Assembly: GCA_025403435.1 (NCBI GenBank)
Contig: CM046341.1
Span: 2,799,183-2,863,182, forward strand
Direction of reading: 5' to 3'
Source: Artocarpus heterophyllus
Taxonomy: Eukaryota > Streptophyta > Magnoliopsida > Rosales > Moraceae
DNA: 64,000 nt
Below are positions 1,978 to 63,027 of this stretch, piece by piece; the stretch's first letter is position 1; every line of letters starts with the position of its first letter. A program made the position numbers and the translations under genes. The notes under the pieces were generated by a model. That model did not search any database, was not told where the DNA came from, and saw only the letters and a list, made by a program, of their open reading frames with translations.

Positions 1978-4900
1978 TTAGCCTAAAACTAACTTATCAA
2001 AGTGATACCGCAATTGTATATGCTTCGTCCTAGCATGAAATGCGGGATTTTTTGCCAAGTGAATGGCGCTCTGACTGTCACTATGTAATGCACTCCTTTC
2101 CTGCTTGTGACCTAGTTCTTCCATAAACGACCTCAACCAAATTATCTCCTTGCTCGCTTCTGTCATTGCCACATACTCTGCTTCTGTTGTAGAGAGTGCA
2201 ACTATCTTTTGCAGCTTCAAGACCCAACTAATTGCAGTGCCACCTAAAGTGTAGACATAACCGGTGGTACTTTTTCTGCCATCAATGTCTCCAGCCATAT
2301 CAGCATCAACATAGCCCCGTAGTCCTAAGTCTGACTTCTTGAAACACAATGCTAAACCTCCAGTACCTCTCAGATATCTAAGAATCCACTTCATTGCCTC
2401 TCAATGCTGTTTACCTGGATTACTCATGTACCTACTCACAACTGCCACTGCATGTGCAATGTCCGGTCTGGTACAAACCATGGCATACATTAGACTGCCT
2501 ATAGCGGAAGCAAAAGGTACCTTGGCTATGTGGTCTCGTTCCTGCTCCGTGGTCGATGATTGCTCTTTTGATAACTTGAAGTGACTGGCCAAAGGAGTAT
2601 TCACAGGCTTCGCATTACTCATGTTGAATCTGCTCAGCACCTTTTCAACATATTCTTCCTGTGATAGTTTTAGACTATTACGGTTCTTCGTTATTCTCAT
2701 CCCAAGGATTTGTTTTGCAGCACACAAATCCTTCATTGCAAACTCCTTAGACAGCTCATTCTTCAACTTGTCGATCTCCTGTTTGCAACCTCCTGCTATC
2801 AACATGTCATCGACATATAGCAATAATATGATGTAAGAGTCACCAAAATTCTTCACATAACAACAATGATTTCCCTGACACCTCAAGAAACCGTTGCTGC
2901 ACATGAACTTGTCAAACTTCTTGTACCACTATATGGGAGCTTATTTGAGGCCATACAAGCTCTTCTGAAGTTTGCACACCAAGTTCTCCTTACCCGATAC
3001 TTCGAACCCTTGTAGCTACTTCATGTAGATCTCTTCCTCCAAATCACCATGGAGAAAAGATGTCTTCACATCCAACTATTCCAAGAACAAGTCCTCGTTT
3101 GCCACTAGCGCAAGTACTGTCCTAATCGTGGTTAGCTTTACCATTGGAGAAAAAATCTCATTGAAGTCGATGCCTTCTTTCTGCTGAAGGCCTTTTACCA
3201 CCAACCTTGTCTTATACCGTTTACTGCCATCAAATTCATCTTTAATCTGGTATACCCACTTATTGTGCAAGGCGCTTTTGCCCTGTGGTAACTTTATCAA
3301 TTGCCATGTCTGATTGGACATTAAGGAATCCATCTCATCCCTCATGGGTAACTCCCACTTGACCGAATCTTCAGCCTCCACGGCTTCATCATAGCTCTCT
3401 GACTCTCCTTTGTTGGTCAACAAGATGTAGTGAAGAGAAGGGGAGTATCTCTGCGGCGGTCTAATGGTCCTGCTACACCTTCTGACTTGTGTGGCAGGTG
3501 TCCTTTGGTTTCCTTATGGAGCTATGTCTTGATCTTCAACCTCTGGATTTTGCACCTCCACTTCAGGAAGATCCTTCAATGGAATCATCTTAGGCTTCTT
3601 GTCTTCAGAACCTAAACCCCTAGAGTCAGTGTTGTCTCTGTCCTTGTACAGAACACCTTCATTGAAGATCACATTCTTGCTCCTGATAATCTTCCGACTT
3701 TGGTCATCCCAAAGATGATAACCAAACTCAAGTCCACCATAGCCAACTAGAAAATACTTCTTTGACTTGGCATCCAGTTTACTTCTAGCAGCAGAATCAA
3801 TATGAACATAGAAACACAACCAAACACTCTCAAGTAAGAGAGATCAACCTTTTTATGGCTCCAGACTTTTTTTGGTAGCTTGAACTTCAGCGGTGTGGAT
3901 GGACTTCTGTTGATCAGATGAGCGGCTGTATTAATTACCTCAGCCCAAAACATCTTTGGCAGCCTCGCATGCAACCTCATGCTTCTGACACGCTCGTTTA
4001 AAGTCCTGTTCATCCTCTCAGCTACCCCATTTTGTTGTGGTTTCCCTATAATGGTTTTTCTCATCTTTATTCTATTCTCAGCACAATACCGCCTGAAATC
4101 ATTATCTAAATACTCTCCCCTATTGTCAGACTGCAAGCACTTCACCTTCAAATCTGTCTCGTTCTTCACCATGGCTTTCCATCTCTTGAAAGCATCAAAG
4201 ACATCAGATTTGTTTTTCAGAAAGTAAACCCATACCTTCCTACTTGAGTCATCTATGAACGTCACATAGTAATTTATGCCACCAAGGGAAGTCACCGGCG
4301 TAGGCCCCCACACATTTGTGTGAACTAGCTCCAATTTCCTAGACTTAGGCTCTCTACCCATCTTTGAGAAACTAACTCTCTTCTGTTTACCAAAGATGCA
4401 GGCTTTACACAAACTGTGATCAACAGTTTTCAAATCCGGCAGTTTTCCTTTGCAGTGAAGCACCTTCATACCCTTCTCACTCATGTGACCGAGCCTATAA
4501 TGCCATAGCTCAGTATTGGCAGTAGAATCAGCAACTGCTATGGTATTTCTGCAACTAGAGTTCATGTAGAGAGTTTCAGCTTTGCGTCCTCGAGCAACAA
4601 CCATCGCTCCTTTCGTGACCTTCCAACCTCCACAATTGAAGGTCACTTTATGTCCTTCATCATCCAGTTGCCCCACCGAAATCAAGTTGCGTATTAGTTT
4701 GGAAACATGTCTCACCTTATGAATCTTCCACACAGACCCATTAGGCATTTTTAAACTGACATCTCCAATGCCAACAATATCCAAAGGTTCTCCGTCAGCA
4801 AGAAAAACTTTACCATGATTTCCAGCAACATAATTCTCCAACACATGACAATGTGCAATGGTGTGGAATGATGCTTCTGAATCTATCACCCACGAATCAA

Positions 4901-5750
4901 AAGAACTGTCAACTGACAAGATTAAGGCATCCTGTTGCTCTTCAGTGGCGGCGTTAGCTGCGTCATTATTCTTGTCTTCGTTCTTCCTTGGAGCCCTGCA
5001 GTTCTTCTTCAAGTGGCCAGTCTTCCTACAGTTCCAACACTCCATGGTCCTACCGTTCCTTGACTTGCTTCTCCCATTCCTCGACTTGCCTCTCTTGCCA
5101 TTATCCCTGTTGGAATGCCTCTCAAGTTTCCTGCCCCTATTATCAACATTAAGGGCCGAGTTCGACGATGAGGTTTCAACTGAGTCCTTCTTGCGAACTT
5201 CTTCCGCCAGAATAGAGTTTCTGACATTAACGAACTTCAGTTTGACATTCCCAAGCGAATTTGTAATGGCCACCCTCATGGGTTCCCAACTGTTTGGTAA
5301 CGAGGCCAAGAGGATTAGGGCATTGATCTCATCATCGAATTTAATCTCTACCGGGACCAATTGGTTCAGGACGGTGTTGAAACTGTTCAGATACTCTACC
5401 ACCGAGGCACCTTCAGGCATCTTTAAATTAAAAAGCTTCTTTATGAGATGTACCTTGCTGTTGGCTGAGGGCTTCTCATACATATCTGACAGAGCCTTCG
5501 TCATCCATGCTGTAGTAGTCTCCTTTGCAACGTTGTGCGCAACGTTCTTTGACAGGATCAAACGGATCACACCCAATACCTGTCTATCAAGGAGATTCCA
5601 CTCCTCATCCTTCATGCCTTTAGGCTTATTACCCAAGGGCAAGTGTAGTTTCCTGCTGTAGAGTTAGTCTTCTACTTGCATCCTCCAATAGGAAAAATCC
5701 AAACCATCAAATTTGGTGATACTGGTTGCCGAACCTTCTTCTCATGTCAT
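1978..5750 (-). pseudogene. Copia Gag-Pol polyprotein, inactivated by stops and frameshifts
   Basis: Probable start ATG at 5750-5748. Domains in order: UBN2-type gag (about 5750-5100), CCHC knuckle CWNCRKTGHLKKNC (about 5040), protease (about 4890), GAG-pre-integrase with an HxxxH/CxxC zinc site (about 4500-4370), integrase core (to about 3750), reverse transcriptase with YVDD (3423-2401), RNase H (2394-1978). Lesions: TGA and TAA codons within the first 30 codons, a frameshift near 3800 in late integrase, four stops between 2905 and 3075, and a TGA at 2400 where a Trp is expected (KQH-stop-EAMKW). Catalytic sites are also hit: the protease Asp-Ser-Gly reads DSE, and the first integrase Asp reads Asn (HTNVWGP). 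It cannot encode an active polyprotein. Confidence 0.9.
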
Positions 5751-5771
5751 CGTTCTTGATCAAAACCTCCA

Positions 5772-5782
5772 CTCTGATACCA
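5772..5782 (-). other. Primer-binding site, initiator tRNA-Met type
   Basis: On the minus strand it reads TGGTATCAGAG, the standard PBS of plant copia elements, two bases inside the LTR edge at 5785. Confidence 0.85.
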
Positions 5783-5784
5783 CT

Positions 5785-6472
5785 TGTTGGGGAATTAGGC
5801 GACTCCTAATTCTAAGGATCGCAAGAATGAATAATTGCAGAAAATAAATAAGAGAAAAGAAGAAAAGAAAGACACCAAATTTTATACAGGTTCGTTCAAA
5901 ATTGAGACTACGTCCTGTTTCTGCCGCTTGCATATTCCACTATGATGAAGGAGATTATAGATTACAAAAGAAGTTTCTCACACACTCTTTAATTGTGCTT
6001 ACCAGAGCTCTCTTCTATCTAGCACCCCGTGGGAATTTTTCTCTCTCAAGGATTGAGCTCTCAAGAATTATGCCTCTCACAAAATAATGTCACTCTCAAT
6101 CTCTTACACACATAACCCTAGCCACCTTATGTCTATTTATAACCAAAGTAAGAGAAAAATAACAACTAATGAGAAACCCTAGTAGTTTCCCGTTTTTAGG
6201 GCGTTTGAGCTCGACTCTGACTCAAAAATATCACGCAACACAGCGCGTCAGCGTCGCTCAAAACGAGCGCTACGGCGCTCCCCTGTAGCGCCTAGGCGCC
6301 ATTCACTCAACGCTTAGGCCTTTTCCTACTAGCGCCTAGGCGCTCTTGTCCCAGCGCCGCGGCGCTCTCCTGGCAGAGCCGCGACGCTGGCTCCCTGCCT
6401 CACGAGGACTGCATTTCTCCCTTTTTCTTCCTTTTTGCTTGGGTGTCGCCTTGATTTAGCTCCGCATCTGCA
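5785..6472 (-). mobile_element. 5' LTR of the copia element
   Basis: On the minus strand it starts TGCAGATGCG (6472) and ends CCCCAACA (5785), with TG...CA termini, 688 bp. The segment 6240-6400 holds several GC-rich palindromes, GCGCCTAGGCGC and GCGCCGCGGCGC, in otherwise AT-rich sequence. Limits are supported by the PBS on one side and by loss of similarity to the TNL2 flank on the other. Confidence 0.75.
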
Positions 6473-6475
6473 ACT

Positions 6476-7124
6476 TAAACAACGTCAAGTCAAGTTTCTA
6501 CATCAACAAACTTGAGGGCAAAGACATCCAAAGCAGTCTGAAACTTTGTGAAGAGACTGAAACTCATTCAGTACATAACAACATCTGTTCAATCTTTTCA
6601 ACTTCCACTATCTAAATATCTAATATGGCATTTGGATCACTGGTTCAAACTACAGAAACAAACTGAAAGTGATGTAGAAATTCATACTTTATAAAAGAAT
6701 ACACTACAGCAATTCTAGTTCGAAACGGTGAGCCGAACATGACATGAGTCTTCCTCAGTTCTCTATACTAAAAGATTACAACAGAACCAAAATATACCTC
6801 AAGTGTAAAGTACTTATATCCACATTCCGATTTTGTTGACTCCTTTGTCCTATCATGTTAGTCCACAAAGCTACATTCAGATTTCCTGATGGCAAATTGA
6901 CCAAAACACAACTAAAGAGTTGAAAATTAACCAACCCAAATTTATCAAAAAGAAAAAAAAAATAGACGGAATCAATCCTTACCTTTCTGAGCTCCAAAAA
7001 GCAGCTTTTTTTTCATCCTATAGCCTTCCTTTCTGTATTAGTTTGGGATAAGAAAATCATGAAATCCGACAATAATCGAAAATGTTACAAAAATGGATGA
7101 TTTAATATACATTATTACCTGCAA
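6476..7124 (-). other. TNL1 3' untranslated and flanking region
   Basis: No coding capacity. Shortly after the TGA stop there is a good splice donor (CAG/GTAATA, cut after 7119). A 50-base exon-like segment (7032-6983) follows, bounded by an acceptor TACAG and a donor AAG/GTAAGG. TNL genes often have introns in the 3' UTR, so this is a plausible spliced trailer. The sequence is shared with TNL2, and the first donor also with TNL3. Confidence 0.4.
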
Positions 7125-10100
7125 TCAGGGTAAGAAATGTAACTGTTCAAAGGGATCAGAATATTTAGCTCTCTTGGGATATGGTTCAATCATATTGGAG
7201 TCCCTCACAGAAGCTCTAGAAACAGAGTTACAAGAGCCAAGATGTTCGCCATGAATAATATAATTGAATTGTGCTTCCACAGAGGAATGGACATCCGCAA
7301 TGTGAAACGCCTTCGCTTCACGAACGAGCTTATTCCTTGCAAGCCAAATAGTATCCACAAGTACAGAAGCATAAAGTAAGAATTCTCCATCAAAATGTAT
7401 GTTTGAGTTTGCATCCCCAAATAACACCAATTCTAGAAAAGATGCCATGGAATCACAGAGGAGGAAATCTGTGCGGAGACACCATCGCGACATGAACCAA
7501 AGAGGTTGAACACTTTGACAATATAGAAAGAGATGGGTGGCACTTTCCAAAACCATGCCGCAGAGTGGGCAAGTAGTGTCTGCCACATCTGTTTGGCGAT
7601 TAACAACTTCTCTTACTGGCAAAAAATCCCAAACAAGCATCAGCCATAATTCCTTGTGCCTTTGTCGTATCTTGGCATTCAACAACTTCTCACAAAGTTG
7701 CTGCCTAGATGGGAAAAATTGAAATCCATGTAAATAATATAACATATTCTTCCAAAATCCATTTGGTTGTGGCTCGTTTGTGACAATGCCAGTGATACCA
7801 AACTCAATTGCATCTCGAAGACATTGCAGCCGGATCCCGCACCTTTTTATGCGCTTTAATGGATCACTAAAACTAAAATGAAATGACATCTCTACAACAG
7901 AATCAAAGTCAAAGGCACTTGTATCCAAATGCCTAGTCATTAACACCTGGTTTATGTCCCGATTGCTTCCATACCATGTGGACTCCGAGACACATCGGAG
8001 GCGCCTTTCAAAATTATAGTTGGTTTTGAGATGGATTTCTATGTTCAAATATACCTCATTTTCGAGATCATCATCATGGGCATTTTCGACAACAAAGCAA
8101 AGAGCAAAACTCATGAAGTTGTTCGGACTATACCAGAGTGGGGGAAGCTTCATGTTAATTGAACATCCCAAATTTTGATAGCTAAACCATTTTGGAATTT
8201 CGTCTCCCGGATAACAAAGAAGAACTTCAAGTAAAGGCACATGCCTTTCCTGTACCGTAAACAGATCATATTAATTTCAAATATGAAAATTAATTCATTT
8301 ATCTTAAATATAGAAAGAAGAGATATACCTTTTCGGGTCTAGGTACGTCATGTCGTATTTCAGTGCCCAAACGTGCGACCGAAAGTTTACTCATGATTTT
8401 CTTGTTATCCAACTTTAACCAACTCTGAAACAACAAATAACAAAATTAAGATACCATGTATTTGAACCAGAGAAATGAGAGAGAAACTTTAACAATCGGA
8501 TACTAATATTTCTCTTGTATTGGGGAAAGTTCTATATTGAAACTCAGTCATGATGTTTTTGAGATCAACTTTAAGCAGCAAAGTAATATCAAACATGAAT
8601 ATTTAATCAGTAGTTTATTATAATGGGAGAGAGAGTGGACATATACCTTACGTCTCGATGGAAATAATATTGATGCAAGAGCTCTAATCTGCAATTCAGT
8701 TACGATGTTCTTGATATCCAGCTTTAAGCAACCTTCAAACGAAATTGAAAACTGCTCCCAAAGACACAAATCTCGAATAGGGGCTTCTGCGAGGATACTC
8801 CACGAATTTGACAGTGTCTCCAACAAAGTGCACCCCCTTGCATTAACTTGCTTCATTGTCAGTGGAAGCTCTGGTAGAGATTGAAGGAGCTTGCAACAAC
8901 TTATGTTTAAAGATCTCAACTTAGAAAGTTTGATGCTTTCAGGTATTCTAACAACATTTGTTTCAGATAGATTTAATGAGTTTAATATGGGTAAAGAGAA
9001 GACCCAATCAGGTATTTCAGATACGCTGGTGTTTTGTAGCTCTAAACTTGCAATATAAACTAGTTTTTCGATTGACGAAGGCAACTGTCTAATCCCTGTT
9101 TTTTGCGTTTTAAATACAATTAGTTGTTCCATGGGCACCAAAATTTCTGGCAAGTACTCTAAACCTATGCAACCTATGAGATAAAGCTCTCGGAGAGATT
9201 TTAACTGGAAGAAGTTGGCCGGAAGGCTCTTAAGCCTTTTGCAGTCCGTTAAATCAAACATCAGAAGATGAGAAAGGTGCACAATTGATGGGGGGACATT
9301 CTGTATTGCAGTCTCAGCCATATCCAAATTTCTTATGTTCTTCGGAAGTTCTGGAAACTTGTGAAAGTTTGAGCAGCCAAATAAATCTAGAAACTGCAGG
9401 GATTCCAACTTGCCAATGCTGCTTGGAAGATTCTCAAGACGTACACAACGACTCAAATTTATCTTTTCCAAATTTAGTGCCCAAGAAAGGTCTGGAATTT
9501 CAGTAAGGTTCTCAGATTCTTTAAGATTCAGAATTTTTAAGCTCTCAATATGCTGTCACCAAAGATATATACAAAAAGTGAGCTACATAATACAAATCAC
9601 ACTAGATATCCAAGACTAGTGGAAACTAAACCATACCTGAATGCCATCCCAGAGTTTCTGTAGCTTGTTGTTATTCAAGTGAAGCTCAACAAGATTTTGC
9701 GGCCAAAATTTTGGAGGCAAAGTCTTTAGAGAACAATTATCCCAATGAAGATATCTGAGCTCATCAGGAAGACATTTAAGACCTTTTGGAAAGTGTAGTT
9801 TGCTCTTAACACAACGATCATGAAACTTGAGAAATTTTAGATTGTACATTGGCTCGAAAACCCTAGGTCTCAAACATATGGCAGAATTAACTTTAGACAT
9901 GTCCATGGACACTCCTTGAATTTTTTTGGTCCCCTGAAACCAATACAATGCAAAAATAAGCATGCAACATATAAATACACATAGAGTATGTAAATTTTAG
10001 CGCACATGCTACTCACTGAGTTATTTTTCAAGACTTTACAAACATCTTCAACGGACCATAGCCTACTGCGCTTTCCGGGCTCATCAGGAGATTGTTGACG

Positions 10101-11908
10101 AACAATTTCAACACCCATGTCCCGTATCAAATCATGCATTGATAGCTTGTTGGAACGGTCAATAGTTATTAGAGACTTATCAATGAGAACTCTAATCCCC
10201 ATAGACACGCCCAAGTGATAACTATCAAGTACTCTTTTTGCAACATCTTGCTCTGTGTCGGTAAAGAAAAATGCAATATCGAGAAAAAGATTTTTCTCAT
10301 CGTAACTTAGTCCATCGTAACTTATTTTCAACACATTTTGAACTTTGTTGTTGGGAATATTTTCCAACTTTTTTAATTCACTTTCCCATTCTTCTATGCT
10401 CTTGGAATATAGGTGACAACCCAAAACTTTAAGGGCTAAAGGAACACCTTTGGCATATCTAGTGACCATGCTTTTTGAGATTTCTTCATAAACTTGTGAG
10501 GGAGAGTTCCCTTTAAATGCTTTAGTATAAAAAAGCTGAAGAGCTTCATTGAAATTTAATTCATCAACCTCATATATTCCATCGGCTTTAATGTTATTTA
10601 ACACTTGCTTATCTCTAGTTGTTATAATGATTCTACTCCCACAACCAAACCAATTGCGATCTCTAGCCAAATATTCTAATTGATCCACATCATCTACATC
10701 ATCAAGAACAATAAGCACCTTTGTATGCTTAAGCCTATTCTTTACAAATTGATTGACATTTTCTATGTGCTCTTCCAATAATTCACAGAAAAGTTTCTTT
10801 TGCAACTTATCGAGTTTGTGTGGCTTTGACTTGATATCCCGTAGGAAACAACAACTTTCAAACTGATGAGCATAGCAATTGAGTATGACTTCAGCGAGGG
10901 TTGTTTTTCCAATGCCGCCCATGCCCCAAATGCCTATAATACGAACATCTAACAAGTTGATTTGTAGCAATTGTTCAATTGTCTGAACTTGTTTGTGAAT
11001 TCCAATTAGATCCTCGATATCATCTTTGGAGGACATATCATCCAACTTTTTTAGGATGTCTTCGACAATTTCCTCAACTACTTCAGACTTAGATCTATCG
11101 TACACAACAAAAGAGTAGTAGGTAAGAACCAGAACTTGAAATCCAATTAATCAATATTCAGATCTTGCATACGAAGCAGACAAAGCTAACAACCAATGAT
11201 TACAGAGCTATTCCGCATTTTTTTTTTCTCTGAAACGTCTGATTCATTTATCAACCTAAAGTCTGCAATTCAACTACAAGCGATCATACTTTTAGGCAAA
11301 CCAAATTAACGAACAAGGAAAACTAAGTCAAACTAAAATCCAAACACTACTTATCTAAAATATTAATAACCAAAAAAAGCCGTCTAATTAAATCAAAACT
11401 AAATATCAAAAGGTAGAGTATACCTTGTGGCTGGTATAGTCCATCCAGATATATTGCTTGCTTCTTTGAAAGCATTTCTCCATAGTCGCACCTTTTCATC
11501 CTCAAAGCATTTTTCCTGTTTAGCAAACGCAACTGCGTAGCTGTTTCGTTGTTTTCGTACATCTGCCGGATCTACATGGTAAAAAATTGGAACGACGAGC
11601 TGCTTGTTTACCTCTTTGCATCGAAGAATATGAGCGAGTTCAGTCAAGCACCACGAGGAAGAAGCATAATTCTCTGAGAAAATGACTACAGAAATCTTTG
11701 ACTCCTCAATTGCTTTCGAAAGTGTTGGTGAAATTTCATCTCCTTTCTCAAGACTTTCCTCGTCCATGTAGGCCCTGACTTTTTTCCGACGCAAAGAAGT
11801 ATAAACATGGCTGGTGAAATCGTTACGAGTGTCCTCACCTCTGAAACTTATGAAAACATCGTATGTTGTTTTCGTCGGATTGATTGGAGAAGAAGAAGAT
11901 GCAGCCAT
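7125..11908 (-). CDS. TNL1: TIR-NB-LRR-C-JID immune receptor with zf-RVT-like C-terminal domain
   Basis: Intracellular NLR immune receptor. Exons by splice consensus and phase: 11908-11424, 11094-10017, 9933-9637, 9552-8647, 8424-8329, 8249-7125; 3987 nt, 1328 aa, no stop or shift. TIR (about 14-161) has SSWCLTEL with the NADase Glu at about 90. NB-ARC: P-loop GMGGIGKTT (about 219), kinase-2 VLIVLDDVD (about 288), [15 protein letters not shown] (about 314), GLPL-type GVPLALKVLG (about 378), MHD (about 481). LRRs fill exons 3-4. C-JID occupies about 958-1105. The same exon continues into a zf-RVT-like domain (about 1135-1225) with knuckle C1181-x2-C-x8-H-x4-C, and ends in PKRAK, a possible nuclear signal. 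LRR-to-C-JID order is normal for TNLs; the zinc knuckle is not. Regulation and ligand unknown. Confidence 0.88.
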
Positions 11909-12906: not shown

Positions 12907-12923
12907 TTTGGCTTTGATTTGCA

Positions 12924-13613
12924 ATGGCAACCATGAAATTTGATATTCCGCTGCTGGATCGCACAACGAGGTTTTCTCTATGGCAAGTGAAGATGCGTGC
13001 TGTTCTAGCACAGATGGACCTTGATGATGCGCTATTGGGTTTCGATAAGATGCCCTCATCATGGTCGAAGGAGGAAAAGGAGCGTAAGGACCGAAAGGCT
13101 CTGTCCCAAATACACCTTCATCTGTCAAATCAGATTTTACAGGATGTACTGAAGGAGAAGACTGCTGCTGCTTTGTGGCTCAAGCTGGAGCAATTATGCA
13201 TGACCAAGAGTCTTACTAGTAAACTTCATTTAAAACAGCGTCTATACTCTCATCGAATGTCTGAAGGTACGTCTCTTGAGGATCACTTAACTGTGTTTAA
13301 GGAGATTGTGTCTGATTTGGAGGCTATGGAAGTTAAGTATGATGAAGAAGACCTTGGGTTAATTTTATTATGTTCACTGCCTTCATCATATGCCACATTT
13401 AGGGATACTATCTTGTATAGTCGGGACACTCTTACCCTAGATGAGGTTTATGAGGCATTATTTTCTAAAGAAAAGATGAAGCAGTTAGTTATTGGATCTG
13501 AAACACAAGGAGAGGGTCTAGTTGTTAGAGGTAGAACCCAAGAGAGAAGTTCTGGGACTGAGATTAGGGCCAAAATGACATCGAATATAACACATGAGGA
13601 AGGGCCAAAATGA
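12924..13613 (+). pseudogene. Copia Gag, 5' fragment
   Basis: ATG 18 bases after the PBS. The product starts MATMKFDIPLLD and reads as a UBN2-type Gag: WQVKMRAVLAQMDL, WLKLEQLCMTKSL, LHLKQRLYSHRMSEG, LLCSLPSSYATFRDT. This is the Tnt1/Tork-like copia arrangement. The recognisable Gag ends at about 13560, before any CCHC knuckle, where a minisatellite begins and supplies the last codons and the stop. No protease, integrase or RT follows, so the element is truncated or internally deleted. Confidence 0.85.
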
Positions 13614-16714: not shown

Positions 16715-19700
16715 TAAACAACGTCAAGTCAAGTTTCTACATCAACAAACTTGAGGGGAAAGACATCCAGAGCAGTCTGAAACTTTGTGAAGAGACTGAA
16801 ACTCATTCAGTACATAACAACATCTGTTCAATCTTTTCAACTTCCACTATCTGAATATCTAATATGGCATTTGGATCACTGGTTCAAACTACAGAAACAA
16901 ACTGAAAGTGATGTAGAAATTCATATTTTATAAAAGAATACACTACAGCAATTCTAGTTCGAAACGGTGAGCCGAACATGACATGAGTCTTCCTCAGTTC
17001 TCTATACTAAAAGATTACAACAGAACCAAAATATACCTCAGGTGTAAAGTACTTATATCCACATTCCGATTTTGTTGACTCCTTTGTCCTATCATGTTAG
17101 TCCACAAAGCTACATTCAGATTTCCTGATGGATAATTGACCAAAACACAACTAAAGTGTTGAAAATTAACCAACCCAAATTTATCAAAAAGAAAAAAAAA
17201 ATTGACGGAATCAACCCTTACCTTTCTGAGCTCCAAAAAGCAGCTTTTTTTTCATCCTATAGCCTTCCTTTCTGTATTAGTTTGGGATAAGAAAATCATG
17301 AACTCCGACAATAATCGAAAATGTTACAAAAATGGATGATTAAATACATTATTACCTGCAATCAGGGTAAGAAATGTAACTGTTCAAAGGGATCAGAAAA
17401 TTTAGCTCTCTTGGGATATGGTTCAATCATATTGGAGTCCCTCACAGAAGCTCTAGAAACAGAGTTACAAGAGCCAAGATGTTCGACATGAATAACATAA
17501 TTGAATTGTGCTTCCACAGAGGAATGGACATCCGCAATGTGAAACGCCTTCGCTTCACGAACGAGCTTATTCCTTGCAAGCCAAATAGTATCCACAAGTA
17601 CAGAAGCATAAAGTAAGAATTCTCCATCAAAATGTATGTTTGAGTTTGCATCCCCAAATAACACCAATTCTAGAAAAGAAGCCATGGAATCACAGAGGAG
17701 GAAATCTGTGCGGAGACACCATCGCGACATGAACCAAAGAGGTTGAACACTTTGACAATATAGAAAGAGATGGGTGGCACTTTCCAAAACCATGCCGCAG
17801 AGTGGGCAAGTAGTGTCTGCCACATCTGTTTGGCGATTAACAACTTCTCTTACTGGCAAAAAATCCCAAACAAGCATCAGCCATAATTCCTTGTGCCTTT
17901 GTCGTATCTTGGCATTCAACAACTTCTCACAAAGTTGCTGCCTAGATGGGAAAAATTGAAATCCATGTAAATAATATAACATATTCTTCCAAAATCCATT
18001 TGGTTGTAGCTCGTTTGTGACAATGGCGGTGATACCAAACTCAATTGCATCTCGAAGACATAGCAGCCGGATCCCGCACCTTTTTATGCGTTTTAATGGA
18101 TCACTAAAACTAAAATGAAATGACATCTCTACAACAGAATCAAAGTCAAAGGCACTTGTATCCAAATGCGTGGTCATTAACACCTGGTTTATGTCCCGAT
18201 TGCTTCCATACCATGTGGACTCCGAGACACATCGGAGGCGCCTTTCAAAATTATAGTTGGTTTTGAGATGGATTTCTATGTTCAAATATACCTCGTTTTC
18301 GAGATCATCATCATGGGCATTTTCAACAACAAAGCAAAGAGCAAAACCCATGAAGTTGTTCGGACTATACCAGAGTGGGGGAAGCTTCATGTTTATTGAA
18401 CATCCCAAATTTTGATAGCTAAACCATTTTGGAATTTCGTCTCCTGGATAACAAAGAAGAACTTCAAGTAAAGGCACATGCCTTTCCTGTACCGTAAACA
18501 GATCATATTAATTTCAAATATGAAAATTAATTCATTTATCTTAAATATAGAAAGAAGAGATATACCTTTTCGGGTCTAGGTACGTCATGTCGTATTTCAG
18601 TGCCCAAACGTGCGACCGAAAGTTTACTCATGATTTTCTTGTTATCCAACTTTATCCAACTCTGAAACAACAAATAATAAAATTAAGATACCATGTATTT
18701 GAACCAGAGAAATGAGAGAGAAACTTTAACAATCGGATACTAATATTTCTCTTGTATTGGGGAAAGTTCTATATTGAAACTCAGTCATGATGTTTTTGAG
18801 ATCAACTTTGAGCAACAAAGTAATATCAAACATGAATATTTAATCAGTAGTTTATTATAATGGGAGAGAGAGTGGATATATACCTTACGTCTCAATGGAA
18901 ATAATATTAATGCAAGAGCTCTAATCTGAAATTCAGTTACGATGTTCTTGATATCCAACTTTAAGCAACCTTCAAACGAAATTAAAAACTGCACCCCAAG
19001 ACACAAATCTCGAATAGGCCCTTCTGCGAGGATACTCCACGAATTTGACAGTGTCTCCAACAAAGTGCACCCCCTTGCATTAACTTGCTTCATTGTCAGT
19101 GGAAGCTCTGGTAGAGATTGAAGGAGCTTGCAACAACTTATGTTTAAAGATCTCAACTTAGAAAGTTTGATGCTTTCAGGTATTCTAACAACATTTGTTT
19201 CAGATAGATTTAATGAGTTTAATATGGGTAAAGAGAAGACCCAATCAGGTATTTCAGATACGCTGGTGTTTTGTAGCTCTAAACTTGCAATATAAACTAG
19301 TTTTTCGATTGACGAAGGCAACTGTCTAATCCCTGTTTTTTGCGTTTTAAATACAATTAGTTGTTCCATGGGCTCCAAAATTTCTGGCAAGTACTCTAAA
19401 CCTATGCAACCTATGAGATAAAGCTCTCGGAGAGATTTTAACTCGAAGAAGTTGGCCGGAAGGCTCTTAAGCCTTTTGCAGTCCGTTAAATCAAACATCA
19501 GAAGATGAGAAAGGTGCACAATTGATGGGGGGACATTCTGTATTGCAGTCTCAGCCATATCCAAATTTCTTATGTTCTTCGGAAGTTCTGGAAACTTGTG
19601 AAAGTTTGAGCAGCCAAATAAATCTAGAAACTGCAGGGATTCCAACTTGCCAATGCTGCTTGGAAGATTCTCAAGACGTACACAACGACTCAAATTTATC

Positions 19701-23722: not shown

Positions 23723-26700
23723 TCAAAGAGAAATGGAAAGTTTAGCTCTCTTAGGATTTGGTTCGACTATATCGGAGTCTCTCACAGTAGCTCTAGAAAC
23801 AGCACTCTTACTAGAGCTAAGATGGTTGGACTGGATAATATGATTGAATTGAGCTTGCACCGAGGAATGGATATCCGCAATGTGAAACCTCTTCTCTCTA
23901 TGAATAAGCTCATTCCTCGCAAGCCAAATAGCATGCACAAGGATAGAAGCATAAATTAAGAACTCCCTATCAAAATAGTATATGCTTGAGTTTGGATCCC
24001 CAAATAAAACCACCTCCAAGAAAGAAGCCATGGAATCACGAAGGAGGAAATCTGTGCGGAGGCCCCATCGTGACAAGAACCAAAGAGGTTGAACACTCTT
24101 GCAATGCAGAAACAGATGGGTGGCACTTTCCAAAACCATGCCACAGAGTGGGCAAGTGGTGTCTGCCACATCCATATGGCGGTTAACAACTTCTCGTACT
24201 GGCAAACAATCCCAAACAAGACACAACCATAATTCCTTTTGCCTTTGTTGTATCTTGGAACACAACAACCTCTCACAAAGTTGTTGCCTAGATGGGAAAA
24301 CCTGAAAGCCAAGCAAAGGGTACAACACATTCTTCCAAAATCCACTTGGTTGCGAATCGTTGGGGACAACATTTGTGTCCCCAAATACATATTGACTGCT
24401 GATGAAACCAAATTCAATTGCGTCTTGGAGAGAAAGCATGCGGATTCCACATCTTTTTAATTTGCGTTTTAATGGATCATCAAAACTAAAGAAACATAAC
24501 ATCTCTGTCACAGAATCAAAGTCAAATGCGCTTGTATCCAGATACGTGGCCATTAACACCAGGTTTAAGTCGTAATGGCTTGTAAACCATTCAGACGTGA
24601 TGACAAAGCGGAGATTCCTTACATGATTATAGTCGGTTTTGAGATAAACTTCCCAATTTAACTTTACCCGCACTTTAATGTCATCAAAATTAGAAGCTTC
24701 GACAACAAAGCAAAAGGCAAAACCCATGAAGTTGTTGGGATCACGCAAGTGTGGGGGAAGCTTAATATTTATAGAACATCCGACGTTTTGATAGCTAAAC
24801 CAGCCTGGTATTTCATCCCCTGTATAAGAAAGGAGAACTTCAAGACAAACCGCTTTCATCCACTGTAACAAAAACAGATCAGAATTATTTCAAATGTAAA
24901 AACTAATTCATTTATCTTAAAAAGGGAAAGAAGAGATGTACCGTGTGTGCTACTTTTATTCGTCTCTTGACTGAAACTGCAACCTCGGGTTCAGTCATGA
25001 TTGTCTTGTGATCCAACTTTATCCAACCCTGAAAGATCAAACGCTACAAATGAAAAACTTATATTTTAACAAAAGAAAGAAAGATGTCAGGTTTATCAAG
25101 TGTGAGTGCTACTAATTCCCCGGCGGTATAAAAGTTCTAATTGGAAAAGTTTCTCTAGCAAGAGATGTTCTTGTGATCCAACTTTAAATAACGGCGAAAC
25201 ATCAAATACAAAAATCAGTATATTTGTTTAACAAGAAAAGAAGAGATATACCTTATGCCTCAATAGAAGTAATGTCGATGCAAAGGATAAAGTTCTAATT
25301 TGAAATTCAGTTATGACGTTCTTGTGATCGAACTTTAAGCAACCTTCAAATGAAAGCCGCTGCCAAAAGGAAGGCTCCCATTTAGGATCCTGTGCTAGAA
25401 GACTCCATGAATTTGACACCATCTCTAATGATGTGCATCCCCGTGCATCAACTCTCCTCACAGACAATGGAAGCTCTGGTATAGATCGGAGCAACTTGCA
25501 ATCTCTTATGACCAAAATTCTCAACGTAGAAAGTTTGATGCTTTCAGGTATTCTACTTATATATGTCTCACTGAGATCTAATGAGAATAATACAGGTAAA
25601 AGAATATCGAATCAGGTATTTCAATTAAACGGGTGCATTGTAGTTCTAATTTTGTAATCCCAACTAGGTTTTCAACCGACAAGGGTAACCTTGTAATTCT
25701 CAATTCCCGTGCTTCAAGCAAGATTAAATTTTCCATGGGCTCTAAAACTTCTGGCACATCCTTCAATCGTAAGCAACCTTCCAAATAAAGCTCTCGGAGA
25801 GATTTTAACTTGAAAAAGTTGCTTGGAAGACTCTTAAGCCTTTTGCAGTCTCGTAAATCAAATACCAAGAGATGAGAGAGACATTCAATTGACGATGGCA
25901 CCGTTTCTATCGATGTGTCAGCCATGCTCAAATATGTTATATTCTTTGGAAGTTCGGGAAACTTGTCAAAGTTTGAGCAGCCATATAAATCTAGAAATTG
26001 CAATGAGTCAAGCTTTCCAATGCTTCTTGGAAGATGCTCGAGACTTGTACAACGGCTCAGATCTATCTTCTCCAAATTTAGTGCCCAAGAGAGGTTTGGA
26101 ATTTCAGTAAGGTTCTTAGAATCTTTAAGATTTAGAAATTTTAAGCTCTCGATATGCTGTCACCAAAGAAAAATATAAATAGCAATTAGATAATGTCCTA
26201 GACACAAGATATTTAAAACTAGTGGAAACTAGACCATACCTGAACACCATCCCAGAGTTTATTTAGCTTGCTATTCTTCAAGTGCAGCTCAACAAGATTT
26301 TGTGGCCAAAACTTTGGGGATAGATTTCTTAGAGAACAATTATCCCAACGAAGATACCTCAGCTCATCAGGAAGATATTTAAGATTTTTGTGAAAGTGCA
26401 CTTGTCCATCAACACAATGACCATGAAAATTGAGAAATTTTAAGTTACTCATTTTCTTAAAAACTTTAGGTCTCAGGCATGTGGCAACATTAATTTTAGA
26501 CATGTCCATGGACATTCCTTGAATTTTTTTGGTCCCCTGAAATCGAAACAATGTAAAAGTAAGCTTCCAACAAGAAGACACACACATAAACAGTTTAGAA
26601 AGTTCAGTGCACAAGGCACTTACTGCATCATTTTTCAGGACATGACAAACATCTTCAATAGACCTTAGCCTAGAGCGCTTTCCAGGCTCATCGGGTGATT

Positions 26701-34260: not shown

Positions 34261-34425
34261 GATGAGCTAGGTATATATTTTGTATTTTTATAAGTTTAAG
34301 AAAAGTGAACAAAAAATCTGTCATAGAGCCAAAGCTAAAATATCAAGGATAAATAACATCTCCATCTCTAACATTCTAACAGGCCGATAAATGAATAAGA
34401 ACTATAAAAAGAGAGAGCGCCGTAC

Positions 34426-34898
34426 CTAGCGTCAGGTATATACCATCCACTCATACTGCTGGCTTCTTTCAAAGCATTTCTCCATTCTTGCACCTTTTCG
34501 TACCCGAAGCATTTTTCATGTTTGGCAAAGGCAACCGCAGAGTTGTTTCGTTGCTGGCTTATATCTGATGGATCTACATGGTAAAAAATGGGAACAACGA
34601 GCTGTTTGTTTACCTCTTTGCATCGAAGGATGTGAGCGAGTTCGGTTAAGCACCACGAGGAAGATGCATAATTCTCCGAGAAAATGACTACACAAATCTT
34701 TGATTCCTCAATTGCTTTCGGAAGTGCTGATGAAATCTCATCTCCTTTCTCAAGATCATCCTCGTCTATGTAGGCTTTGACTTTTCTCCAACGCAAAGCA
34801 GCACGAAAATGGCTGGTGAAGGTGTTACGAGTGTCCTCTCCTCTGAAACTTATGAACACATCGTAAGTTTTTTTGGGAGAACAAGAAGACGAAGCCAT
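34426..34898 (-). CDS. TIR-domain exon (probable exon 1 of TNL3)
   Basis: ATG at 34898, 473 nt ending at donor AG/GTACGG with phase 2, the same phase as exon 1 of TNL1. The TIR domain is complete: YDVFISFRGEDTRN, AIEESKICVVIFSENYASS, and SSWCLTEL with the NADase Glu at about residue 86. The bases upstream of the ATG resemble the TNL1 leader. The nearest downstream NB-ARC exon on this strand is TNL3 at 27707, 6.7 kb away and phase compatible. If it is not spliced, read-through gives a short TIR-only protein of about 176 aa, also a known plant type. Confidence 0.75.
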
Positions 34899-35519
34899 AA
34901 CAAGAGCAAAAGTTGACTATAGGAGACTCAGATCTCGTAAATTTCGGAAGAACGTGGTGGTGACTATGGGCTGACATTAGTAATACTAAAGGACACAGTT
35001 AGTCGTGCATTTATATCACATAGTTTTGAATTAATTGAACTTTTTCCCCAAGAAACTTATGAAAACTTTTGTACGGGAGGTGAAAGAAAGTCTAATTCAT
35101 TTATGAAATTAAAGTAGCTTTCCAGCGCTTTATCAGAAAGCATCTTTCTCATTATTTACACGCTTAAGTTTCACGGAGCGAATATATATTTGTCATATGA
35201 TTGTGCCACCTATTATATACCAAATCGGTGTAAATATGTCTCTCAAATGTTGAAGCTAAAAATCACATATATATAAATATATAAATAATAAGAGCATGTC
35301 ATGCCATATTTTAAGAGCATGTTGATCATGATATACAATGAATGTGGCTTGCATTGTGAGCAACCATTCAACCATTATATTTGGCGTCCGAAAAAAATCC
35401 CACATTGCATTTTCTAGGGAACTACGTGTGAGTGTAACAAGGCAGTACCAATCTATACTAAACTTACTGTAATTAATATTTTCATGCATTTATGTAGTTT
35501 TTGTCCTACTGATATTACT

Positions 35520-36320
35520 AAACATAGCCTACTGCGCTTTCCAGGCTCATCAGGTGATTGTTGACGAACAATTTCATCACCCATGTCTTCTACCAAATCA
35601 TGCATTGATAACTTGTTGGAAGGGTCAATGAGAACTCTAATCCCCATAGACATATGACGACTGTCAAGTATTCTTTCCGCAACACCATGTTCTGTGCCGG
35701 TAAAGAAAAACACAATGTCGAGAAATAGATTTTTCTCATCGTAACTTATTTTCAACACATTCTGAACTTTGCTGTCACGAATATTTTCACACTTCTTTAA
35801 TTCATTTTCCCATTCTTCAGTGCTCTTGGAGCATAGGTGACAACCCAAAACTTTAAGGGCCAAAGGAACACCTTTGGCGTATTTTGTGACCGCACTTTTT
35901 GACATTTCTTCATAAACTTGTGATGGGGAGTTTCCTTGAAGCGTTTTAAAGGGTGGTGGGAACCACTTTTACTGTAGCATGTGAGAGCTTTACACTGTAA
36001 CAAATTTTTTTATTGTTACCGTAACATGTGACAGCTTTACACTGTTTATAACTGAGTTTGTGGTGGAAACCGTTGCATTAGTATAAAATAGCTGAAGAGA
36101 TTCACTGAAATTTAATTCATCAACCTCATATATTCTATCGGCTTTAATATTATTCAACACTTGCTTGTCTGTAGTTGTTACAATGATTCTACTCGCATGA
36201 CCATGCCAATCGCAGTCTCTAGCCAAATATTCTAATTGATCCACGTCATCTACATCATCAGGAACAATAAGCACCTTTGTACGCTTAAGCCTATTCTTTA
36301 CAAATTGATTGACATTTTCT
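35520..36320 (-). pseudogene. NB-ARC remnant B
   Basis: Reads ENVNQFVKNRLKRTKVLIVP (kinase-2 degraded to VPDDVDD), RIIVTTTDKQVLNN, then after an inserted MITE (35945-36070) continues through GVPLALKVLG, SMHDLVEDMG and SPDEPGKRSRL. It lacks the P-loop and all LRRs. It is closer to TNL1 than to TNL3 in wording. Small in-frame losses occur around 35640 and 35740. Not functional. Confidence 0.85.
35945..36070. mobile_element. MITE family 1 copy inserted in NB-ARC remnant B
   Basis: About 125 bases with the family core (CATGTGAGAGCTTTACACTG, a T-rich centre, then a second GTGACAGCTTTACACTGTTT) split the NB-ARC reading frame between LQLFYT and the FKG segment. Confidence 0.65.
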
Positions 36321-36939
36321 ATGTAAAGCCCCAAAATTTTTAATTGTAAATTATTGTCATAAATTACATAAATAAATAATTTTTTTTGAATTATTATCAT
36401 GAGCCCTTTATTATTGTCATTGTTATTATTGTTATTAACTAATAAGTTTTACAACGTGGTTTCAATTACAGCGTGAAGGTTCAAGCCTCAATTAAGAGCA
36501 TGATGTGCTAATATGTAATTATTGTGATTTGTTCTTACATTTCCAATTTTGGTGATCAATTTTTATAAATTTTTTACCCGTCTTGCTCTCCAATATATAT
36601 GTATGTATATGTCCACTTATACTCTGTTTCGTTCTTCATTTACGTTTTTACATTCAATTTATTATATATAAATGTTATGATTGTCTTTAATCAAATTAGT
36701 GATGGTTTAGCATGGACATATTATTTATATGTTGATAACTTATACATGTAGCATATATATTAGACGTTTACGTCGTTACCTTACCTTCTCTTTGCTTTTA
36801 GTTAATCAAATGCAATTTGTCTACCATGATTTTGCTGACACCACCTCATTCCTTCAATTCCTTTGTTTATTCATATGGGATCATCAATAATTCTCCAATG
36901 GCACATCTTGCCCATATCTTTTTCTTTGTTCCAACTTTT

Positions 36940-37690
36940 GCATTTCTTTTTCCCATTCTTCTATGCTCTTGGAATAAAGATGGCAACCCAAAACTTTTAA
37001 GTGCTAAAGGTAGGCCTTTAGCATATGTATTGACCAAATTTTTTGACATTTCTACATAAATTGATGAGGAAGTCTCCTTTAAATGCTTTTGTAGAAAATA
37101 GTTGAAGAGCTTCATGAGAATTCAATTCATCAACCTCATATATTCCATCAGCTTTGATATTCTTCATCACTTGCTTATCTATAGTTGTTATGATGATTCT
37201 ACTCCCATGACCAAACCAATCGCGGTCTCTAGCCAAATATTCTAATTGTTCTACATCATCAAGAACGACTAGTACCTTGATACGCTGAAGCCTATTCATT
37301 ACAAATTGATTGACAGTTTTTATTTTCTCCTTCAACAATTCTGAGAAAAGTTTCCTTTCGAAACTCATCAAGTTTATGTGGCTTACACTTGATACTTCGA
37401 AGAAAACAACTTTCTAAGTGAGAAGCAAAGCGACTAAATATGACTTCAGCGAGGGTTGTTCTTCCCATACCACCCGTGGCCCAAATGCCTATAATACAAA
37501 CATCTAGCTAGTTAAGATGTAGCATCCGTTCAATGTTCTCAACTTTTTTTATCAATTCCAACCAGATCTTTGAAATCATCTTTAGACGACATGTCATCCA
37601 ACTTTTTTAGAATGTCTTTGACAATTTCCTCAACTGCTTTAGACTTGCAGTCGTCAACTGCTTTAGACTCGCAATCAGACCTAGCATACA
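36940..37690 (-). pseudogene. NB-ARC remnant A
   Basis: Starts at an acceptor-like site and reads KAVEEIVKDILKKLDDMSS, a broken P-loop in which the Lys is Arg (GGMGRTT near 37460), then [36 protein letters not shown] and, after a frameshift near 37050, [13 protein letters not shown]. It stops near 36940. It overlaps remnant B in content, so A and B come from two different genes. A 27-base tandem duplication of the first codons lies at about 37625-37680. Confidence 0.85.
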
Positions 37691-61824: not shown

Positions 61825-62955
61825 TTAAAATCCGCCACCAGCTCCTCCACCGGCACCTCCACCAAAACCACCCCCTCCGCCAGCACCACCGCCGCCAGCT
61901 CCTCCTCCAAAGCCTCCACCGCCTCCTTTCCCACCTCCAAAACCTCCACCAACGCCGCCACCAGTTCCTCCGCCTGCACCACCACCAAAACCTCCTCCAG
62001 CACCACCACCGGAGCCACCACCACCGCCAACTCCTCCACCAAAACCTCCGCCTTTGCCACCACCTGCTCCACCACCGGCACCACCACCTGCTCCCCCACC
62101 AGCACCGCCACCACCACCTGCTCCGCCACCTTTACCACCTCCAAACCCACCGCCAGTGCCGCCACCTGCTCCCCCACCAGCACCGCCACCTGCTCCCCCA
62201 CCAGCACCGCCACCACCACCTGCTCCGCCACCTTTACCACCTCCAAACCCACCGCCAGTGCCGCCACCTGCTCCCCCACCAACACCGCCACCTGCTCCGC
62301 CACCTTTACCACCTCCAAACCCACCGCCAGTGCCGCCACCTGCTCCCCCACCAGCACCGCCACCTGCTCCGCCACCTTTACCACCTCCAAACCCACCACC
62401 AGTGCCGCCACCTGCTCCCCCACCAGCACCGCCACCACCACCAACTCCGCCTCCTACCCCACCACCGTTTCCACCTCCAAAGCCACCACCGGCACCACCA
62501 CCTGCTCCACCGCCAGTGCCACCACCACCACCAACTCCACCTCCTACACCGCCGCCTTTTCCACCTCCAAAGCCACCACCACCGCCAGTACCACCACCTG
62601 CTCCACCTCCACCTCCAACTCCTCCTCCAACACCACCTCCGTTGCCACCTCCAAAACCACCACCGGCACCAGCACCACCACCAGCGCCACCTCCTAGACC
62701 ACCACCAGCACCACCTCCAGCGCCACCACCACCACCCTTACCACCTCCAAAACCACCACCAAGACCGCTACCACCTCCAGCTCCACCACCAACTCCGCCA
62801 CCCCCTCCGGCGCCGCCGCCAAACCCACCGCCGAGCCCACCATCAGAAAACGTTTCCTTCTCAAGTCTCCGACATTGGGCCACTCCAATCAAAAACACAA
62901 ACAACACAAAAGCAACCAAAACCCCAACATGTTTAGAAAAAGAAAACCTTCCCAT
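61825..62955 (-). CDS. Secreted glycine-rich protein (GGX-repeat, cell-wall type)
   Basis: ATG at 62955, single exon, 376 aa. An N-terminal signal peptide (HVGVLVAFVLFVFLIGVAQC) is followed by RRLEKETFSD and then nearly pure Gly-Gly-Gly-X blocks (X is Ala, Phe, Val, Lys, Thr or Ser), ending GGGF. This is the class I structural GRP pattern associated with plant cell walls. FGGGKGGG modules recur about every 20-34 residues. The opposite strand of the repeat reads as poly-proline, but has no signal peptide or gene structure. The only intact structural gene beside the broken pectinesterase. Expression pattern not deducible. Confidence 0.85.
   Translation of the reverse strand: MGRFSFSKHVGVLVAFVLFVFLIGVAQCRRLEKETFSDGGLGGGFGGGAGGGGGVGGGAGGGSGLGGGFGGGKGGGGGAGGGAGGGLGGGAGGGAGAGGGFGGGNGGGVGGGVGGGGGAGGGTGGGGGFGGGKGGGVGGGVGGGGGTGGGAGGGAGGGFGGGNGGGVGGGVGGGGGAGGGAGGGTGGGFGGGKGGGAGGGAGGGAGGGTGGGFGGGKGGGAGGGVGGGAGGGTGGGFGGGKGGGAGGGGGAGGGAGGGAGGGAGGGTGGGFGGGKGGGAGGGGGAGGGAGGGAGGGAGGGKGGGFGGGVGGGGGSGGGAGGGFGGGAGGGTGGGVGGGFGGGKGGGGGFGGGAGGGGAGGGGGFGGGAGGGAGGGF
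62108..62440 (-). repeat. Tandem repeats inside the glycine-rich gene
   Basis: About four units of 60-103 bases share CACCTTTACCACCTCCAAAC and CCAGTGCCGCCACCTGCTCC (near 62127, 62230, 62303 and 62375). They encode repeated GGGTGGGFGGGKGGG modules and differ in length by whole GGX codon blocks, so the frame is kept. Confidence 0.8.
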
Positions 62956-63027
62956 ATTTTCCTAAATGAAAACACAAGCAGAAAAACAAAAGGTAATTGA
63001 GTTGAGAGGCACATTCTAAAGCAACAT

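Follow-up and report, generated by a model that had tools for sequence, protein, structure and literature searches.

The stretch analysed here (the window) comprises 64,000 nucleotides of Artocarpus heterophyllus contig CM046341.1 (assembly GCA_025403435.1, positions 2,799,183 to 2,863,182) and carries three copies of a TIR-NB-LRR (TNL) immune receptor gene, TNL1, TNL2 and TNL3. In each copy, a domain of the type found in long interspersed nuclear elements (LINEs), matched by the Pfam zf-RVT model, lies behind the C-JID domain in the last coding exon. TNL1 is on the minus strand, and a splice model with six exons and five GT-AG introns gives an uninterrupted protein of 1328 amino acids. Exon 1 (11424..11908) holds the ATG and the TIR domain and exon 2 (10017..11094) the NB-ARC domain, while the LRR region starts in exon 3 (9637..9933) and continues in exon 4 (8647..9552); the TIR, NB-ARC and exon 4 LRR assignments also come from Pfam. 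Exon 5 (8329..8424) is a short linker exon. Exon 6 (7125..8249) is open from end to end and, by Pfam, splice model and alignment, encodes the C-JID, a tail, the inserted LINE-type domain, the native C-terminus and the stop.

Pfam analysis of the full TNL1 protein placed TIR, NB-ARC, WHD, LRR, C-JID and zf-RVT in this single open reading frame (ORF). As spliced in the model, TNL1 is thus a nucleotide-binding leucine-rich repeat receptor (NLR) with an integrated domain, since a single ORF joins TIR, NB-ARC and LRR to a non-canonical domain. Within exon 6, C-JID (PF20160; 7827..8210, minus strand, exon residues 21-148) was matched at E 5.9e-17 and zf-RVT (PF13966; 7497..7700, minus strand, exon residues 191-258) at E 2.4e-07. 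Exon 6 of TNL1, TNL2 and TNL3 scored 62.2, 67.5 and 58.7 bits for C-JID (cut-off 24.1) and 31.8, 31.8 and 28.9 bits for zf-RVT (cut-off 27.5), and the full-length TNL1 protein scored 30.1 bits for zf-RVT. The zinc-knuckle (7518..7571, minus strand) reads C-x2-C-x8-H-x4-C, with C63, C66, H75 and C80 of the insert as ligands; its coding pattern TGYCCNYTNTGYGG occurs three times in the window, once per TNL copy, against 0.03 expected by chance. An earlier note on this DNA had described a last exon running unbroken from C-JID into zf-RVT with a CPLC-x8-H-x4-C knuckle, and both descriptions hold. The fusion in one open frame is confirmed for the predicted TNL1 gene, which would be expressed as one protein. 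Endonuclease and RVT_1 domains were absent from the full TNL1 protein at E 1e-3, as was RVT_3 behind zf-RVT at E 1e-3 or better, so that TNL1 does not have the tail of the soybean TNL SRZ4.

Site and fold of the insert

Exon 6 was aligned with three fused Morus proteins (P0001, P0002 and P0003) and six unfused relatives (Parasponia P0041, P0034 and P0019; Trema P0058 and P0031; Morus P0042). The native receptor tail reads ...CGI..L.LQDAIEFG.ISS...V...EPSG, followed by the end EP.PKRAKFSSFP. In the unfused P0041 and P0058 these two parts are separated by about 9 residues; in P0019 and P0031 the tail is shorter and closes with the related NKRTKLSSFS, and P0034 and P0042 are without the basic end. 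In the fused proteins about 165-180 residues stand between the two native parts. The TNL1 insert as delimited by alignment with the unfused relatives and by fold (7224..7757, minus strand) has 178 residues, with borders uncertain by about 10. Behind it lies the native C-terminus EPYPKRAK... (7128..7187, minus strand), which is basic, resembles a nuclear localization signal and aligns with EPLPKRAKFSSFP of Parasponia P0041. The basic end is retained in TNL1, TNL2, TNL3 and P0001, altered in P0003 and absent from the P0002 model. That the insertion is internal, in frame and at the same site throughout favours a single capture. The insertion of a LINE as such was rejected, since endonuclease and RVT_1 are missing, the insert does not end at a stop of its own and the native tail continues behind it. 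This agrees with the captured domain proposed in the earlier note, which had placed it as an appendage after C-JID; it does lie behind C-JID, but inside the native tail.

The insert was predicted to have the fold of the LINE ORF2p C-terminal domain (CTD), as known from human LINE-1 and R2, over residues 12-178, with a C2HC zinc site; in the plant it would fold with zinc. On this model, what the zf-RVT label covers is an entire structural unit, the CTD of LINE ORF2p, rather than the knuckle region that had been recognized; it is detached here from the endonuclease and reverse transcriptase of LINEs. Identity was 10-15% to solved LINE CTD structures and 18-34% when eight fused rows were set against five zf-RVT-type rows. 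The structural comparison required VIA-align, Foldseek being weak by itself. A sequence-only search of the PDB with a five-row insert profile gave no match at E 1, and a 30-row profile retrieved R2 chains only (E 0.16-0.19). A chance zf-RVT match was rejected on the E-value of 2e-07 in the exon and the independent fold match. For the exon 6 model as a whole, the best Foldseek match was the RPP1 LRR-ID (7crb); seven chains were found at E 1e-3 or better, of which the best three were RPP1 and the other four unrelated. The C-JID assignment thus has both a Pfam score above the cut-off and a C-JID fold behind the LRR.

The insert is close to neutral or weakly negative, with a net charge of -3 to +1 across 109-154 aligned residues in six fused rows. 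A loss of basic character, suggested by five LINE-type rows, was dropped because comparison of five fused rows (TNL2 omitted as a near copy) with all 22 other zf-RVT-type rows, which scatter widely, gave a one-sided p of 0.08.

Constraint, copies and distribution

No zinc ligand varies among TNL1, TNL3 and P0001-P0003, and CCHC is also present in TNL2 and in P0121-P0123, three further relatives described below. The site is absent from P0124, a broken Morus fragment carrying insert sequence, and reads CCHY in Parasponia P0125, where the fourth ligand is changed from C to Y. Between TNL1 and TNL3, the insert has a nonsynonymous divergence (dN) of 0.136 and a synonymous divergence (dS) of 0.371, giving a ratio omega of 0.37 (0.22-0.62); omega is 0.30 (0.12-0.71) for the zf core and 0.40 (0.25-0.65) for C-JID plus linker. 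A simple neutral simulation over half the TNL1-TNL3 distance produced a mean of 3.5 stops, and 2.5% of 5000 runs were without a stop. By these sequence comparisons, selection has kept the insert in mulberry and fig relatives, which suggests that the domain probably does a job in the receptor.

The same fusion is found in exon 6 of TNL2 (17362..18486, minus strand; insert 17461-17994) and, diverged, of TNL3 (23723..24862, minus strand; insert 23801-24340). The earlier note had counted both; each passes the Pfam cut-offs, but TNL2 is a recent tandem duplicate, 98.2% identical to TNL1 across 5.9 kb, and therefore adds no independent support. TNL3, with an insert dS of 0.37 from TNL1, does. A 1-nt indel lies in the NB-ARC exon of TNL2 and another in the LRR exon of TNL3, so that only TNL1 is plainly intact within the window, and constraint on TNL3 may have ended recently. 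The TIR exon nearest to TNL3 lies about 6.7 kb upstream of it. The stretch 34425-37646 holds a TIR exon and broken NB-ARC pieces left from one or more additional TNLs; this TIR (34898-34425), 6.7 kb from TNL3, may be its first exon.

Two further observations concern the TNL1-TNL2 pair. Synonymous divergence is 1 of 112 sites in the insert versus 7 of 96 in the C-JID part (p 0.03; 17461-17994 and 17995-18486 compared with 7224-7757 and 7758-8249), and the same trend is seen against TNL3 (p 0.08); gene conversion across the insert could explain this. TNL1 and TNL2 also extend 7 residues beyond the TNL3 stop (7125-7166), apparently through an indel near the native stop, which would make their extreme C-terminus new.

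Relatives with the same fusion, which the earlier note had proposed to seek in other plants, were found among gene models of Morus and Ficus. With the tail region as query, three of 332 candidates matched at E 1e-3, and all three (P0001-P0003) are TNLs of Morus notabilis. These same three, query included, were the ones with a precomputed Pfam zf-RVT match among the best 120 of the 4036 TNLs (passed from 7957 scored) nearest to the receptor part of P0001. Full-length P0001 scores 27.1 bits for zf-RVT, just below the cut-off, and P0003 28.4 bits. Search with an insert profile gave 27 proteins at E 1 among 2833 candidates, of which five (P0121-P0125) are distinct from the rest. In Ficus carica P0121, zf-RVT is accompanied by the beginning of C-JID, 96% identical to P0001 over 26 residues, and the model seems to skip the remainder. 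In the case of Ficus P0123, zf-RVT is above the cut-off and C-JID is not called by Pfam; the part before zf-RVT can be aligned with the last portion of the C-JID region of P0001 (E 5e-09). P0122, from ENA, has both domains. The other 22 matches are zf-RVT-type rows at E 3e-5 and weaker, 18 of them with precomputed zf-RVT, and are presumed to be LINE-derived.

Morus and Ficus belong to separate tribes of Moraceae, and Parasponia to Cannabaceae. Among the 27 matches, the insert's closest relative outside Moraceae is P0125 of Parasponia (99 residues), whose core shares 41-44% identity with the fused rows and 43% with the TNL1 core. It may be a remnant of an early capture, an ortholog, or a relative of the donor. 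In an NB-ARC tree (26 rows, midpoint root), TNL1, TNL3 and Morus P0001-P0004 form one clade (100/100). The neighbouring group of unfused Morus P0042 and five Cannabaceae genes (88/86) is joined to it at 97/96, and because this group holds both families the capture could predate the Moraceae-Cannabaceae split. P0004, apparently unfused, falls inside the fused clade, so that two changes of the fusion label are needed on this tree; we discount it because its model is short (921 residues) and has no C-JID in the precomputed Pfam list, and because the insert-bearing fragment P0124 is recorded for a contig of equal length, which may be the same one. The insert tree is unrooted and the order inside its fused group is weakly supported. 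A passage of PMC10460887 dates Morus versus Cannabaceae at about 58.9 million years; no usable date for the Morus-Ficus split was found, including in passages of PMC9791056.

The transposable elements around TNL1 are of a different class. A Ty1/copia element lies just past the gene on the minus strand (1978-6500), with gag and integrase in an ORF at 3747-5663 that ends about 1.5 kb past the TNL1 stop, and RVT_2 at 2401-2928. What we take, by eye, to be a tRNA-Met-type primer site is near 5,770. The earlier note had stated that no endonuclease or reverse transcriptase is nearby; a copia reverse transcriptase is present, but because it is of the RVT_2 class and without a zf-RVT match, the element was rejected as the source of the insert. 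A separate open copia gag ORF is on the plus strand between TNL1 and TNL2 (12918-13613). At 61825-62961, the minus strand has a long glycine-rich repeat ORF, and several further frames of this stretch also contain long ORFs.

Roles considered for the insert

TNLs with a C-JID, such as RPP1 and ROQ1, bind effectors through the LRR and C-JID and then assemble, which activates their TIR enzymes. A passage of PMC12787737 likewise states a role of C-JID in effector binding. We propose that a TIR-NB-LRR-C-JID lineage acquired, probably once, an in-frame fragment of LINE ORF2 encoding the C-terminal zinc-containing domain. The fragment would have landed inside the tail that follows C-JID, leaving the old basic C-terminus behind it, and the domain would then have been retained in the protein during gene duplications. 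Most likely the insert serves as an integrated domain where the receptor senses effectors. With the LRR and C-JID it would form a surface open to binding or modification by a pathogen protein, and this contact would help trigger TIR signalling. A folded domain beside C-JID would be well placed to widen or gate effector contact. The earlier note had likewise suggested that the domain might be an effector bait. To this reading, a captured LINE CTD retained as a sensing integrated domain in a TNL, we give a probability of roughly 0.55. A more far-reaching version, in which a complete, DNA-melting LINE CTD has served as the TNL sensor since before Morus and Ficus parted, or perhaps before Moraceae and Cannabaceae did, and contacts either nucleic acid or a pathogen protein directed at nucleic-acid-binding hosts, is speculative and rather unlikely.

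Several observations weigh against the preferred reading. Foldseek E-values for the insert are weak (best 0.31), and AlphaFold confidence is low for the insert within full exon 6, which folds poorly past C-JID (mean pLDDT, the AlphaFold confidence score, 52.9); the insert folded well only alone with zf-RVT relatives. The insert part behind the knuckle has an omega of 0.51 (0.26-1.23), alone not distinguishable from 1, and in TNL2 and TNL3 the frame is broken outside the insert. In the soybean TNL SRZ4, which has zf-RVT and RVT3, the added domains had no significant effect on antiviral activity and the TIR alone sufficed, according to passages of PMC10934728. This result speaks against a necessary signalling role, although SRZ4 is a different gene in another setting. 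For another soybean zf-RVT TNL, Table 2 of the same paper lists an interaction of a viral protein with the part behind TIR-NBS, a part that holds more than zf-RVT.

If the insert were instead a structural or regulatory extension, contributing to stability, autoinhibition, oligomer packing or placement of the basic C-terminus, its position between C-JID and the native basic tail would be accounted for, as would its slower change (dN 0.136 versus 0.252 for C-JID). Slow change is less usual for a surface under arms-race selection. Unfused relatives, however, keep the same receptor plan without the insert, and we rank this role behind sensing, as a tentative second choice. Third comes continued contact with nucleic acid, by which the receptor would sit on or sense DNA or RNA. 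A precedent is RRS1-WRKY, a nuclear receptor whose DNA-binding integrated domain is the bait, and which the insert with its basic PKRAK tail would resemble. The CTD fold and zinc ligands are retained, and passages of PMC7617806 describe the human LINE-1 CTD as wedging its zinc finger into target DNA; the positive cleft that the LINE-1 CTD forms with the wrist contrasts with the near-neutral insert, and we consider this role doubtful.

A tolerated passenger, an old functionless insertion in a fast-turning gene family, would fit the SRZ4 result, the frameshifts in TNL2 and TNL3 and the frequency of retroelement domains without known role in NLR annotation (passages of PMC12787737), but it is made improbable by an omega under 1 in the insert, the conservation of every zinc ligand in the compared TNLs and the occurrence in both Morus and Ficus. 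That the zf-RVT part is a separate LINE remnant, annotated together with the receptor and not translated with it, is hardly credible: C-JID and insert share one open frame with no stop and no splice needed, the native tail resumes behind the insert, and the same join is present in Morus P0001-P0003, Ficus P0123 and P0122.

Comparison with known systems

The fusion of a transposon-type domain to an NLR had seemed unfamiliar in the earlier note, and this impression has to be given up. As an integrated domain of NLRs, zf-RVT is tabulated in PMC4759884 for G. max, G. raimondii, O. sativa, P. vulgaris and T. urartu; it is also listed for rose (PMC10045381) and in passages of PMC8832786 and PMC11126693, and passages of PMC12787737 give it a high frequency with no link to perception. 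Five soybean TNLs with zf-RVT have been cloned and tested, as described in parts of PMC10934728. According to passages of the respective papers, current evidence neither links retroelement NLR domains to effector perception (PMC12787737) nor shows a transposon part in making NLRs with integrated domains (PMC4759884). A TNL-C-JID-zf-RVT fusion is not described in the passages of the paper that names both C-JID and zf-RVT, nor was it found in the mulberry and fig NLR literature by title and abstract start, where supplementary tables may list it. Within those passages and abstracts, the combination, the internal site, the match to a whole LINE CTD and the conservation in Moraceae were not found in print.

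Retroelement remains in NLRs are easily dismissed as annotation noise. The present case argues that at least one such remnant is a real domain capture kept by selection, and recognition of the whole CTD unit makes a clean test possible, as the insert can be removed from an intact receptor with the native tail kept. With TNLs of the RPP1/ROQ1 type, TNL1 shares an LRR and C-JID effector-binding end; those receptors are not known to have an extra domain behind C-JID. Morus notabilis P0001, P0002 and P0003, 77%, 67% and 63% identical to TNL1, have the same architecture and insertion site. Their database names are generic ('disease resistance-like protein DSC1' for P0001 and P0002, 'TMV resistance protein N' for P0003), the basic C-terminus differs in P0002 and P0003 as noted above, and the P0003 model starts at NB-ARC. 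The soybean zf-RVT TNLs, SRZ4 and four others, compared by architecture from parts of PMC10934728, likewise have zf-RVT behind the LRR in a TNL as a proposed integrated domain. TNL1 differs from them in being without RVT_3 and in carrying a single domain inside the native tail, an arrangement common to two Moraceae tribes.
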